Positions 2,851 through 25,444 of a stretch of 64,000 nt of DNA are shown piece by piece; within the stretch, counting starts at the first letter, position 1, and each line of letters starts with the position of its first letter. The stretch lies in NCBI GenBank assembly GCA_025612375.1, contig JAAXKN010000002.1, forward strand, positions 186,001 through 250,000, in the 5' to 3' direction. The position numbers and the translations under genes are program-made. The notes beneath the pieces were generated by a model. It was not told where the DNA came from. It ran no database searches and saw only the letters and a program-made list of their open reading frames with translations. The DNA comes from Ignavibacteria bacterium. Its GTDB lineage: Bacteria > Bacteroidota > Ignavibacteria > Ignavibacteriales > SURF-24.

Positions 2851-2922
2851 TCCGCGATAGCTCAATGGCAGAGCATTCGACTGTTATCCCGAAAGCTTTC
2901 GGGATGCAGGTTCGAAAAGCGG
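2851..2922 (+). pseudogene. degenerate tRNA-Asn copy with palindrome (relic A)
   Basis: This stretch matches the intact tRNA-Asn at 2948 through the acceptor 5' strand, D arm and anticodon loop, including some 10-15 bases of leader. After CTGTTA the sequence switches to the perfect 16-base palindrome CCCGAAAGCTTTCGGG (2888-2903) instead of the anticodon-stem 3' strand and variable loop. It rejoins the tRNA at TGCAGGTTCGA but the T-arm 3' strand is lost, ending in AGCGGA. It cannot fold as a normal tRNA. It is one of four relics in the window with the same substitution (see 23664, 24086, 25371). Confidence 0.7.
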
Positions 2923-2947
2923 AAAACATAGATTTTGATTTTTACAC

Positions 2948-3019
2948 TCCGCGATAGCTCAATGGCAGAGCATTCGGCTGTTAACCGAAGGGTTGCAGGT
3001 TCGAGCCCTGCTCGCGGAG
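2948..3019 (+). tRNA. tRNA-Asn (anticodon GTT)
   Basis: 72 bases fold as a complete tRNA: acceptor stem TCCGCGA/TCGCGGA, D stem GCTC/GAGC, anticodon stem TTCGG/CCGAA with loop CTGTTAA (anticodon GTT at its centre), five-base variable loop, T stem GCAGG/CCTGC with loop TTCGAGC, discriminator G. CCA is not directly encoded after the discriminator; the next bases are CACCA. The 3' end is the attachment site of the mobile element, and the last codons of the recombinase run antisense to it. Confidence 0.95.
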
Positions 3020-4603
3020 CACCAAGGGATTTATGGTGATAGAATCACTGTAAGTCCCTTTTTTTATTGGTACTTGCACAGGTTCGAGCGGACTGTTTTC
3101 AGCCTCATTACCCTTTAGTGAATCATTGATTTCTTTTATCAGCAAAATTGGTTTTTCTAGCGAAATTATAAGCTTTCTGTCCTTTAAGAGGAGGTTCGAG
3201 CCAAGTGACTTTAAAATCATACGCTTCTGTTCAATCGTCCCATTTTTAAATGCTTCGTTGGCTGCCTGGCCAAACCTCATCAGACTTTCTACCGATTCCA
3301 TATCGGCCGATTCATCCTTCTCAAGCTTACTAACCAAAGCTTGCAGCTCTATTTCCCTGTCCTTAAACTGCGCCTTTTTCTGCAGAAATTCTGAGTCACT
3401 GAGTGTCCCGCTTAATTTCAGATCAATAAGCTTATCCACATTTCTCTGGATAACTGATAATTCAGTGCGATGGGCCTTAAGCAGATTCTTTCTGTCACTT
3501 ATAGACTTCATAGCATCCTTTTTTAGCATTTCCATAGCCCACGAGATGAAGTCCTCTGGAATAGTGATGCTTTCAAGCACATCAGAAATCTGGGCTTCAA
3601 GGCTTTTTACTTCAACCGTCTTCTGCGAGCAGTCTGGTTTTAACTTCTTGGTGCAGTGATAGTATGTATAGCTGTGGACATTCCCGTTTTTCTGGTGCTT
3701 TACTTTGTCCTCGGCTGTTATCGATGATCCGCATTCTGCACACTTAATAGCACCTGTAAAAGCAAATTCTTTTGCTTCTGGCTTCTGCTTGTATCTTTGA
3801 TCGAGAAGCCTTTGAATTTTGTCGAATTCTTCTTTTGTAACCATAGGTTCATGTTTTCCCTTTATCCAGTTACCGCTTTTTTTGGGGTATTCAAAGTAGC
3901 CATAATAGAAGGGATTCCTTAAGATCTGATAAACAGTTGTTTTACCTATTTTCCTTCCGAACCTGTTTCTGAGCCCCATTTCGCTATCGACCAACCTTAC
4001 AAGCTGTGATGGCAGGTAGGCTCCTGTCAGCATCAAATCAAACATCTTTCGCGTGGCATCAAATGTAACGGGATCTTTAACCATTTCTTTGTCACCTTTT
4101 CTCTTTAGGGGATTATGCAGGTAGCCAAGCGGAGGTTGCGCGGGGTACCATCCGCGTTCTGCTTTTGCCTTAAGCCCCCTTTGGGTATTTTTGCTCAGGT
4201 CTCTTATAAACTGGTTTGCCATTCCCTGCTCAACGCTCATCAGAAGAACATTGTCCTCTGGGTAGTAGCTTCTGTCGCTGCACTGTATGTGTTTTATTAT
4301 ACCCTGCTGAAGCATCCAGCTTATACTTCCAAAATCAATTGGGTTTCTAAATAGACGGTCCAGTTTCCAGCACAAAATTCCCTGGGCCTCTCCTGCGTGA
4401 ACTCTTGCAATCATCTTGTTAAAGACTGGACGCCCAGGCGCCTTAGCCGACTTTGATTCTGTCAGGACGTCAGAAATTTCAAGCCCTCTCTCCTGTGCAA
4501 GTTCTTTTAGAACTTTTAGCTGCGAATCGATGGACGCTACCTGCCTGTCCTCAGTTTCCGAGGACTTACGGGCATATAAAAAATATTTTACTTTGTTACC
4601 CAT
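2981..4603 (-). CDS. large serine recombinase (integrase)
   Basis: A 540-residue protein with an N-terminal resolvase domain (about 5-155; nucleophile Ser14 in the Y-x-R-x-S motif YARKS; also SIDSQLK and WKLDRLFRN), a Recombinase domain (about 165-270), a zinc ribbon with paired cysteines (CAEC ... HC ... DC, about 285-325) and a coiled-coil region (about 340-440). This is the architecture of large serine integrases that insert and excise mobile DNA. It would cut at the tRNA-Asn 3' end. Its last 10 residues, EQGSNLQPFG, are antisense to the tRNA, so the integrated gene borrows its stop codon from host DNA. In the excised circle (preferred att) the frame would continue about 33 codons to a stop at 23509-23511. 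Large serine integrases in tRNA genes are uncommon. Confidence 0.93.
   Translation of the reverse strand: MGNKVKYFLYARKSSETEDRQVASIDSQLKVLKELAQERGLEISDVLTESKSAKAPGRPVFNKMIARVHAGEAQGILCWKLDRLFRNPIDFGSISWMLQQGIIKHIQCSDRSYYPEDNVLLMSVEQGMANQFIRDLSKNTQRGLKAKAERGWYPAQPPLGYLHNPLKRKGDKEMVKDPVTFDATRKMFDLMLTGAYLPSQLVRLVDSEMGLRNRFGRKIGKTTVYQILRNPFYYGYFEYPKKSGNWIKGKHEPMVTKEEFDKIQRLLDQRYKQKPEAKEFAFTGAIKCAECGSSITAEDKVKHQKNGNVHSYTYYHCTKKLKPDCSQKTVEVKSLEAQISDVLESITIPEDFISWAMEMLKKDAMKSISDRKNLLKAHRTELSVIQRNVDKLIDLKLSGTLSDSEFLQKKAQFKDREIELQALVSKLEKDESADMESVESLMRFGQAANEAFKNGTIEQKRMILKSLGSNLLLKDRKLIISLEKPILLIKEINDSLKGNEAENSPLEPVQVPIKKGTYSDSITINPLVLREQGSNLQPFG
3014..3020. other. candidate attL core
   Basis: GCGGAGC covers the last bases of the tRNA-Asn acceptor strand and one base beyond. 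The same heptamer at 23611 is the preferred right partner. Large serine recombinases need only a very short identical core, so a seven-base repeat is acceptable but not proof. Confidence 0.55.
3024..3065 (+). terminator. element-borne terminator for tRNA-Asn
   Basis: AAGGGA (3024-3029) pairs with TCCCTT (3055-3060), an inner GTGAT/ATCAC stem adds stability, and seven T follow. It lies inside the recombinase coding region on the opposite strand. It replaces the host terminator, now displaced to 23624. Confidence 0.7.
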
Positions 4604-4645
4604 TTACTTTTCTCCCACATACTTTTATTGAAATTTTAATTATAA

Positions 4646-4674
4646 GGTGATGGGCCGCTCAAAAACCCATCACC
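4646..4674 (-). terminator. strong hairpin between small gene and recombinase
   Basis: GGTGATGGG and CCCATCACC form a nine-base stem with an 11-base loop. No T run follows on either strand, so it may be an attenuator or processing signal between the 4683-4835 gene and the recombinase rather than a true terminator. Confidence 0.35.
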
Positions 4675-4682
4675 TAATTCAA

Positions 4683-24085: not shown

Positions 24086-24150
24086 GGTACGTCAGAACCT
24101 TCGGCTGTTATCCCGATTAATCGGGTTGCAGGCGCCCAGCCCCTGCCCGC
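24086..24150 (+). pseudogene. tRNA-Asn relic with different palindrome (relic C)
   Basis: Begins like a D arm (GGTACGTCAGAACC), carries TTCGGCTGTTA, then the palindrome CCCGATTAATCGGG (24112-24125), then TTGCAGG and CCCTGCCCGC resembling T and acceptor strands. The 5' half is absent, as in relic B. The centre of the palindrome differs (TTAA versus AGCT) while arms and junctions are the same. Confidence 0.6.
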
Positions 24151-24160
24151 AACACACTCA

Positions 24161-24187
24161 GCACCTGGTTTTTGACGGTGCCTTTTT
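24161..24187 (+). terminator. terminator behind tRNA relic C
   Basis: GCACC and GGTGC with an 11-base loop, followed by CTTTTTCTT. It also abuts the 3' end of the desaturase gene on the other strand. Confidence 0.55.
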
Positions 24188-24188
24188 C

Positions 24189-25193
24189 TTAAATGCCCCG
24201 GTGTTTTAATTGCCTGAAGCTGATAAGTTTTTTCTGCTCCTCATCCCAGAGGTGAAGCATCATACTCCTGAAGCTTTTGCGGATTGTTAATACCGGAGCC
24301 TTCTGCAGCGCGGGAGTCTTCCTGTAGCACTTCTCCAGCAGGTAATTCGGTATCCCGGGGTTTAAGTGATGGATATGATGGAATCCGATATTTCCGGAAA
24401 ACCATTGCAGGACTTTGGGCAATTTGTAATATGAACTGCCCTGAATGGCTGCTTTTGAATAATTCCACTCTTCCTTGTTTGCCCAGTATGTTTCTTCGAA
24501 CTGATGCTGGACGTAAAACAGCCAGTTGCCAATGGATGTTGAGATGAAAATTATGGGAAGCTGAATAAGAAGAAACATTTTCAGGCTGACCAGCCATATC
24601 ATTGTTCCTACAAGCAGTATAAGCACCAGATCTGTCCAGTATACATTCGGCTCAACCTTTTTTAAGGCTTTATTTTTCGAAGTCGGAAACCTGTACCATA
24701 TAATAAAAACAATTGCCGGAATAAAAAGGAATAAAAATAAAGGATGGCGGTAAAGCCTGTACTTGATCCTTTCCCATTTGGACTTCTGCAGATATTCTTT
24801 GACTGTTATGGTATAAACGTCCCCAATGCCTCTGCCCTCAAGATTGCCGGCATTGGCATGATGGATGCCATGACCTTTCCGCCAGTAAAAGTAGGGAGTC
24901 CAGGTAAAGAAACTGCAGAAGAGGCCTACAATATTATTTGCCTTCTTTGATTTGAAAAAAGATCCGTGGCCGCAATCGTGCTGAATTATAAAAATACGCA
25001 CCAGAAAGCCGGCCTCAGGTATTGCCAAAAGCAGTGTCAGCCAATAGCTGTATTCAACAGAGAGAAACATAAGATACCAGGTAATGAAAAAGGGGATAAA
25101 GGAATTTAGAAGCTGCCAGACACTTTTGAGTGTATGAGATGTCTGATAATTCGCGAGCATATTTTTCCAACTCCTGGAGTCGGTATTATCCAT
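24189..25193 (-). CDS. fatty acid desaturase
   Basis: A 334-residue integral membrane protein with several hydrophobic helices and the three histidine clusters of the membrane di-iron desaturase family: HDCGH (72-76), HGIHHANAG (108-116) and HHIHH (272-276). Such enzymes insert double bonds into acyl chains with molecular oxygen, adjusting membrane fluidity or making special lipids. Electron donor and exact position of the bond are not predictable. The gene is single, leftward, with its stop next to the terminator at 24161. Confidence 0.9.
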   Translation of the reverse strand: MDNTDSRSWKNMLANYQTSHTLKSVWQLLNSFIPFFITWYLMFLSVEYSYWLTLLLAIPEAGFLVRIFIIQHDCGHGSFFKSKKANNIVGLFCSFFTWTPYFYWRKGHGIHHANAGNLEGRGIGDVYTITVKEYLQKSKWERIKYRLYRHPLFLFLFIPAIVFIIWYRFPTSKNKALKKVEPNVYWTDLVLILLVGTMIWLVSLKMFLLIQLPIIFISTSIGNWLFYVQHQFEETYWANKEEWNYSKAAIQGSSYYKLPKVLQWFSGNIGFHHIHHLNPGIPNYLLEKCYRKTPALQKAPVLTIRKSFRSMMLHLWDEEQKKLISFRQLKHRGI

Positions 25194-25444
25194 ATATGGA
25201 AGACCTTATAAAATTAATAGGGTAAAAACGAAAAAAGGCGTCTTGTTGGTTTATTAAAACTATTTTAATTCGTTTATATCCGTATAGTATAAGGACTTGA
25301 GCCAGGAACAGCAAGCCACTTATCTATGACCATGAAGCAAATGGACTTACAAAGGGCTTTGTATTTTGAAAATGGCAGAAAATCCGGCTATGATCCCGGA
25401 AGCTCTCGGTGTCAGGCTTTATTCCGCAGAGCAGGCAAGTTAAC
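25194..25444. other. intergenic region with decayed tRNA relic
   Basis: About 250 bases between desaturase and glycosidase genes; apart from relic D at 25371 nothing is seen. Confidence 0.4.
25371..25417 (+). pseudogene. decayed tRNA-Asn relic (relic D)
   Basis: AATGGCAGAAAATCCGGCTATG followed by ATCCCGGAAGCTCTCGGTGTCAGG is clearly related to relic B over about 45 bases, with substitutions throughout. It again starts in the D loop and contains the imperfect palindrome. It marks an older copy of the same unit. Confidence 0.5.

Follow-up and report, generated by a model that had tools for sequence, protein, structure and literature searches.

A putative family of GIY-YIG nuclease elements resident in tRNA genes, traced from a broken tRNA-Asn array in an Ignavibacteria bacterium

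Why does a small GIY-YIG endonuclease gene lie among several broken copies of a tRNA-Asn gene? The locus is part of a 64,000-nucleotide (nt) stretch of an Ignavibacteria bacterium genome (GCA_025612375.1, contig JAAXKN010000002.1, positions 186,001 to 250,000), referred to here as the window. An earlier sequence-only reading described four tRNA-Asn relics in which a palindrome replaces part of the anticodon arm, and proposed a mobile unit of tRNA part, terminator and nuclease gene that spreads within tRNA-Asn loci. Our analysis of the window and of related genomes indicates that the locus probably belongs, in split and partly decayed form, to a widespread family of GIY-YIG elements that reside in tRNA genes and whose activities would be cleavage and homing; its layout looks like that of an unrecognised family of selfish tRNA-targeting elements. 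The features of the locus are as follows.

2851–2914, plus strand: tRNA-Asn relic running from the tRNA 5′ end to the T loop; a palindrome at 2887–2904 replaces tRNA positions 37–46
2948–3020, plus strand: intact tRNA-Asn (GTT), found by ARAGORN and Rfam (RF00005)
23588–23650, plus strand: older stub with a T-arm remnant, a tRNA 3′ end and a terminator-like hairpin (23624–23649); recognised by eye, a putative relic
23664–23730, plus strand: tRNA-Asn relic running from the D loop to the 3′ end, palindrome at 23684–23701
23735–23761, plus strand: terminator-like hairpin behind relic 23664, from a terminator scan
23821–24078, plus strand: GIY-YIG endonuclease gene, 85 amino acids (aa; PF01541; AlphaFold2 mean pLDDT 95)
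24093–24150, plus strand: tRNA-Asn relic, palindrome CCCGATTAATCGGG at 24112–24125
25374–25433, plus strand: decayed tRNA-Asn relic with a degenerate palindrome; aligned core 25374–25409, remainder by eye

The four relics described earlier are all real, three of them with exact palindromes and the fourth decayed. Between the tRNA motifs CTGTTA and TGCAGG, relics 2851 and 23664 carry the palindrome TCCCGAAAGCTTTCGGGA (at 2887 and 23684, respectively), and relic 24093 carries CCCGATTAATCGGG (at 24112). The fourth relic (25374) aligned to relic 23664 with a score of 37, compared with a best plus-strand background of 26 over 1042 windows of the 64-kilobase (kb) stretch; minus-strand scores reached 40 only at the known relics and otherwise 25. 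The pattern CTGTTATCCCG-N(2-14)-CGGG was found at three sites in the 5.23-Mb genome, all at this locus, and its reversed control at none. Three of the relics start in the D loop, as had been described, whereas relic 2851 instead runs from the tRNA 5′ end as far as the T loop. The terminator scan of 23500–24300 yielded three sites, against a shuffled mean of 0.9, located after relic 23664 (23735–23761), after the stub (23624–23649) and at the gene start; two relics had been credited with terminators of their own, and this was recovered for relic 23664, while that of the relic then placed at 24086 was absent from the three sites. The gene does lie between two relics (23821–24078, between 23664 and 24093), and the sole intact tRNA found was the tRNA-Asn at 2948–3020 (ARAGORN and Rfam). 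A second small GIY-YIG gene of the same genome lies at the edge of a contig, behind a tRNA-like 3′ end (L005:1-344, by eye).

Homologues of the nuclease gene (E ≤1e-8) were detected in 133 of 196 relatives, several as tandem arrays of 2–6 units, and in 128 of 395 Bacteroidota genomes of a phylum-wide draw. Among 40 unselected loci (the top rows by E-value that had not been fetched before and began >1200 base pairs (bp) from the contig start; one close to a contig end was skipped), a tRNA gene was present within 400 bp in 36, on the same strand in all 36 and representing many isoacceptors; three of the four misses (L198, L206 and L215) lay ≤100 bp from a contig end. With ~45 tRNA genes per 4 Mb, such adjacency is expected by chance at ~1%. 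A same-strand tRNA within 400 bp was also present in 22 of the 30 best loci of the phylum-wide draw, some of which had already been seen and at least one of whose misses was an inner array copy (L238). A profile of three proteins retrieved 65 loci from named genomes, more than half of them from Ignavibacteria, Chlorobia and other Bacteroidota, and in the latter groups an intact tRNA-Asn often lay directly upstream of the gene. Unlike the window family, the distant homologues in Gastranaerophilales had no tRNA in the fetched stretch at any of 13 loci.

The strict motif occurred at five places in 4 of the 196 genomes, with the centres AAAGCTTT, ATAGCTAT, ACAAGT and ATAAAAT. Rather than lying at random sites, all five adjoin a homologous gene or an intact tRNA-Asn, although at the place in genome G091 the gene is represented by its 3′ end alone, cut by the contig end. 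The order in G037 (L008) is a decayed relic, an intact tRNA-Asn, a terminator, the GIY-YIG gene, a palindrome-bearing tRNA-Asn starting from the D loop and the same terminator. The proposed unit of tRNA part, terminator and nuclease gene thus exists, at tRNA-Asn in many genomes and in varying copy number; we infer its spread. Its confinement to tRNA-Asn did not hold, since units are also associated with tRNA-Ser, Arg, Asp, Pro, Gly, Ala, Val and Met, and a mirrored 5′ version occurs. A single unit restricted to tRNA-Asn was accordingly rejected on the other isoacceptors in the 40-locus and phylum-wide sets.

The 3′ version has the order intact tRNA, gene and displaced 3′ part (Asn, Asp, Pro, Gly, Ala, Val and Met), and the 5′ version has the order displaced 5′ part, gene and intact tRNA (most Ser, Arg, one Met and a few Asn). 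The element leaves a whole tRNA behind, so that such a locus has an intact tRNA and a displaced part. Beyond the gene, 33 of the 36 tRNA-linked unselected loci have a further piece of the same tRNA, where a piece means ≥9 nt with a BLAST E up to 1, so that a few may be chance matches. The displaced piece carried a delimited insert (10–70 nt) in 23 of the 36, with a perfect stem of ≥6 in 18 of the 23; inserts were mostly 15–22 bp in the 3′ version and longer in the 5′ version. In a hand-made list of 43 inserts (one per locus, 10–40 nt), 36 had a stem of ≥6, compared with 2.6% after shuffling; this list omits loci with no delimited insert, longer inserts (e.g., L148, L150, L151, L183, L184 and L203) and inserts shortened by BLAST (L020, L022 and L027).

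The palindrome varies in sequence by locus, for example TGGCGCC..GGCGCCA in the tRNA-Pro of L153, and a sequence-conserved palindrome was rejected because Pro, Ser and some Asn loci carry other palindromes. Pairing is retained: across 24 tRNA-Asn palindromes, 99.4% of cells were paired, 19 cells showed double changes, and covariation was 0.318 compared with 0.094 for shuffled data (0/500). The distance from the gene–tRNA junction to the palindrome was 14.9 ± 3.3 nt in the 3′ version (46 loci) and 14.2 ± 3.3 nt in the 5′ version (17 loci), and the 3′-version junctions are spread over tRNA positions 6 to 43 despite this narrow spacer. These rows were collected by hand without full-length relics and ambiguous rows, with L211 assigned to the 5′ class on visual inspection. 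Because short BLAST hits force a minimum of ~9 nt and a palindrome can only lie past the junction, the permutation is weak and the narrow spread alone counts. The regular breakpoints and changing palindrome centre, which had been taken to argue against random decay, were borne out by the covariation and by the motif centres across genomes. Two tRNA-Asn relics from different enzyme lineages (L016 and L163) carry TCCGTTAGCTAACGGA as an additional palindrome at 57|61, within the T loop. In the upstream relic of L020 (the same locus as L009), the tRNA sequence ends at GGTTCG of the T loop and gives way to a stretch resembling GIY-YIG codons (by eye), perhaps through a microhomology join.

Enzyme clades are largely faithful to one tRNA. 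On a tree of 89 genes (83 columns; 46 of 86 inner branches open), the isoacceptor changed 23 times, where the minimum is 15 and the shuffled mean 53.5, and 0 of 200 shuffles were as low. The 89 genes are those, from a total of 142, with a same-strand tRNA of known type; 51 of the 142 had no tRNA within 400 bp, including Gastranaerophilales, inner array copies and contig ends. Within tRNA-Asn, the palindrome lies at 36|47 in 24 loci that form one enzyme clade (support 95/90), at 25|36 in five loci that form another (97/89), and at 23|34 in a third lineage (L189). The first two positions required two changes on the enzyme tree, which is the minimum, over 30 labelled rows (without L017, L025, L057, L163, L240 and the second loci L154, L155 and L161 of genomes already represented). 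Because the members of the pairs L042/L231 and L041/L048 are nearly identical, the number of independent cases is below 24. Palindrome position therefore follows the enzyme within one tRNA, and the narrow spacing together with this enzyme-specific position suggests that the palindrome marks where the displaced part would be cut. That duplicated tRNA genes decayed by chance beside an unrelated nuclease gene, a view for which the decayed state of the fourth window relic could be cited, is exceedingly improbable, being contradicted by the tRNA adjacency, target fidelity, covariation and clade-specific position.

The window protein matched Pfam PF01541 with an E-value of 1.5e-15, and no NCBIfam model matched it. 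It is a single GIY-YIG domain whose closest solved structures by sequence are UPF0213 proteins (1zg2, E 2.4e-13), followed by SLX1; in the fold comparison with the AlphaFold2 model, SLX1 was the top match and UPF0213 was among the best. The matched SLX1 chains have 183–324 aa, compared with 85 in the window protein; regarding UPF0213, tRNA neighbours were surveyed for the distant Gastranaerophilales homologues, not for UPF0213 proteins themselves. The GIY-YIG residues, which we take to be catalytic in this enzyme family, are nearly invariant (Y15 and R25 in 91/91, E61 in 90/91). The ratio of nonsynonymous to synonymous substitution rates (dN/dS) had a median of 0.10 and was <1 in all 19 pairs with dS <2, including copies within one array, although four of the 19 pairs were distant homologues unlinked to tRNA. 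The protein thus belongs to a homing-capable nuclease superfamily, with its predicted catalytic residues intact and under purifying selection. Phage origin was rejected, as tblastn against phage sequences gave no match at E ≤1e-5 and PHROG gave none at E ≤0.001. The protein might instead cut its tRNA at the RNA level, with the hairpin relic RNA as a decoy antidote as in RNA-antitoxin modules; the match in tRNA identity, the tandem relics and the preservation of the hairpin as pairing would suit such a system. We regard it as very unlikely, because sequence and fold place UPF0213 and SLX1, the latter a DNA nuclease, nearest among solved structures, and because a decoy would not need to sit in the repeated part of that very tRNA gene.

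Comparison with close relatives revealed presence and absence at one conserved target site, both between the window and G001 and within genus g28. G001, a member of the window's genus, has a single relic with the same palindrome where the window has a relic, the gene and a second relic; the sequence to its left matches the left flank of the window's first relic, the sequence to its right matches the right flank of the second, and thus the window holds one extra unit of gene and relic. In genus g28, the gene is present at tRNA-Asn in G037 and G117, while G046, G038, G087 and G033 have a plain tRNA-Asn, from 260 bp ahead of it to 330 bp behind, the kind of empty site that the earlier reading had suggested looking for; of the 12 genomes searched, G103, G109, G127 and G131 gave no resolved locus. 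G037 and G046 align through the tRNA and ~100 bp upstream. The displaced part is of local origin in 9 of 26 tRNA-Asn loci, as the 3′ flank of the tRNA itself is repeated behind the relic. Positions 47–73 of the tRNA matched its own relic perfectly in 5 of the 26 loci and at least as well as the tRNAs of other loci did in 21. A recoded rescue half, that is, an intact half altered to resist cutting, was unsupported, since the T arm and acceptor of the relic match the intact tRNA at the loci compared.

These observations can be combined into a probable mechanism. The nuclease would break its cognate tRNA gene, and homologous repair would copy the element into empty tRNA alleles. The half needed for a whole essential tRNA would be supplied by the element or duplicated by repair, and breaks at occupied loci would yield tandem duplications. 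In the displaced half, the palindrome would mark the cut site or destroy it; otherwise it would itself be the substrate, with an SLX1-like enzyme acting on the hairpin. In its most specific form, the mechanism would be a natural home-and-rescue drive, in which a one-gene element inserts after cutting an essential tRNA gene, preserves a whole tRNA by means of a brought or duplicated half and leaves behind a half disabled by the palindrome, with lineages each specialised on one tRNA across Bacteroidota. We hold this form tentatively, at somewhat less than even chances.

Several points weigh against tRNA-targeted homing. Cleavage and transfer are inferred and neither was observed, and the intact tRNA of an occupied locus should still hold an uncut target, whose escape is left unexplained. 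Wherever the comparison was made, both halves, relic and intact, agreed with the local tRNA, so that local duplication fits as well as homing. The difference between the window genome (G000) and G001 reads equally as gain or loss, and recombination between relics would leave the same picture; G004 has the desaturase and no relic there, but its left flank differs. G117 has no palindrome in the 330 bp after its tRNA, some relics have no gene within ~1.5 kb, and TCCCGA palindromes also lie outside relics in G037 and G083. Among the 36 tRNA-linked unselected loci, three lack a displaced piece (all tRNA-Asn) and ten have a displaced piece with no delimited insert; the five of the 23 inserts short of a six-pair stem are all tRNA-Arg, with a perfect stem of only 4. 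Tree proof of horizontal transfer was not reached: monophyly of Chlorobia within the Asn clade was not rejected (approximately unbiased test, p-AU 0.07), and horizontal spread is thus not proven.

Some of these points would suit a resident nuclease, inherited vertically, that drives tandem amplification of its tRNA gene without horizontal homing, as a SegB-like control of dosage, perhaps against tRNA-cutting attackers, with the relics as failed duplications. SegB of phages T4 and T6 is described in the available text of PMC13096335 as a free-standing GIY-YIG homing endonuclease that cuts in tRNA genes and is required for tandem amplification of a T6 tRNA locus. The arrays of 2–6 units, the local origin of the relics and the possibility of Chlorobia as one clade agree with such a resident enzyme, as does L243, where five intact tRNA-Asp copies adjoin the GIY-YIG gene. 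We nevertheless consider it unlikely, because what the arrays examined repeat is the gene with a broken piece of tRNA rather than an intact one, and because presence within genera is patchy. The tRNA-Asp copies of L243 are near-complete and in tandem, and lie with palindrome relics upstream of the gene.

Whether the palindrome is a generic repeat was also considered. REP/RAYT-type repeats are short dispersed palindromes with a nuclease gene as the proposed mobiliser, and the window palindromes could likewise be a separate small REP-like mobile repeat that lands in structured RNA genes and is mobilised by, or unrelated to, the GIY-YIG protein. Counts of TCCCGA..TCGGGA exceeded the reversed control in G037 (70 vs 1), G083 (17 vs 1) and G091 (13 vs 2), and G083 has such palindromes inside RNase P RNA (rnpB, L106:1456), 23S rRNA (L102:1827) and a cobalamin riboswitch (L098:1516). 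In contrast, they were not enriched in the window genome (10 vs 15) or G001 (5 vs 9). A generic intergenic repeat, which the earlier reading had named as a case against itself, was accordingly rejected for the window genome, where the count is below the control, and holds in part for relatives in which the palindrome is dispersed outside relics. Unlike REP/RAYT repeats, the palindrome is not dispersed in the window genome and has an enzyme-specific position within tRNA parts, yet G037 shows the dispersal typical of them. The differing palindrome sequences of the Pro, Ser and some Asn relics and the narrow spacing further oppose a separate REP-like repeat, which we judge quite unlikely. At seven loci (L084, L085, L086, L091, L097, L103 and L104), intact tRNA genes for Ser, Met, Ala, Thr, Gly and Glu are preceded by 5′-tRNA relics, mostly in tandem, whose D-arm/anticodon region holds a palindrome; no GIY-YIG gene was found in their fetched stretch.

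The proposed tRNA-resident element has partial parallels among known systems. According to the available text of PMC3630166, fungal mitochondrial mobile open reading frames (mORFs) occur in Allomyces atp6 and in Glomus atp6, atp9, cox2 and nad3; an endonuclease open reading frame (ORF) lies in a conserved gene, a duplicated end completes the gene and the native end is displaced beyond the ORF. The Glomus enzyme is of GIY-YIG type in atp9 and LAGLIDADG in the others (PMC3630166). The window family shares the complete target gene and the displaced end beyond the endonuclease ORF, seen in the 33 of 36 unselected loci, and a GIY-YIG enzyme with one mORF case. Unlike these mitochondrial protein genes, as they are described there, it resides in tRNA genes of bacterial chromosomes, has 5′ and 3′ versions and often has a palindrome in the displaced part; moreover, the inserted end of the Allomyces mORF diverges from the native one, whereas the halves in the window family match locally. 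SegB resembles the window family in placing a GIY-YIG enzyme beside tRNA genes and in tandem units. It differs in sequence family, the window protein having no phage tblastn (E ≤1e-5) or PHROG match, and the available text of PMC13096335 describes neither a displaced tRNA half nor a palindrome for it.

A literature search by title and start of abstract, with few subscription papers and no preprints, returned among the matches listed none on chromosomal GIY-YIG genes nested in tRNA genes. The parts are known, namely, a homing-type GIY-YIG nuclease, an insertion that restores a gene end and tandem amplification; what had no counterpart among the matches listed is their combination in bacterial tRNA genes, together with a palindrome-bearing displaced part and enzyme clades that mostly keep to a single tRNA. 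If the tRNA-targeting reading is true, approximately one-third of the sampled Bacteroidota genomes (128/395; tRNA linkage was not checked in each) may harbour so far unrecognised elements that sever and restore essential tRNA genes, and odd tRNA fragments and tandem pseudo-tRNAs in such genomes would be explained. On bacterial chromosomes the family would parallel both gene-end-carrying mobile ORFs and SegB amplification, and would provide very small nucleases (~85 aa) whose likely tRNA-gene targets can be read from the genome. Because target, scar and empty allele would all be known, the life of such an element in an essential gene would be directly testable.

The distance between the first relic and the rest of the array remains to be accounted for, and here a further gene is relevant.

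2981–4603, minus strand: large serine recombinase, 540 aa (PF00239, PF07508 and PF13408); its ORF reads into the tRNA-Asn, and it is not part of the GIY-YIG element

The units read contain the GIY-YIG gene alone, with no site-specific recombinase of their own, which distinguishes them from tRNA-integrating islands. At L025, a homologue of the recombinase lies 3′ of tRNA-Asn (65% identity over 537 aa), and at L253, L255 and L257 matches to its C-terminal end lie immediately 3′ of tRNA-Asn. On the basis of these homologues, the window between 3.0 and 23.6 kb reads as a separate island of ~20 kb at the same tRNA-Asn, with a tentative right end, and this island probably split the window's GIY-YIG array later. 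Genes of the island (3021–23580, ~20 kb) include DUF5906, Mrr, PD-(D/E)XK (REase-ARP) and Schlafen/AlbA_2, the Mrr-like gene being one of several that resemble restriction genes. Three further genomes of genus g28 (G107, G141 and G040) have the serine-recombinase end at tRNA-Asn in place of the GIY-YIG gene.

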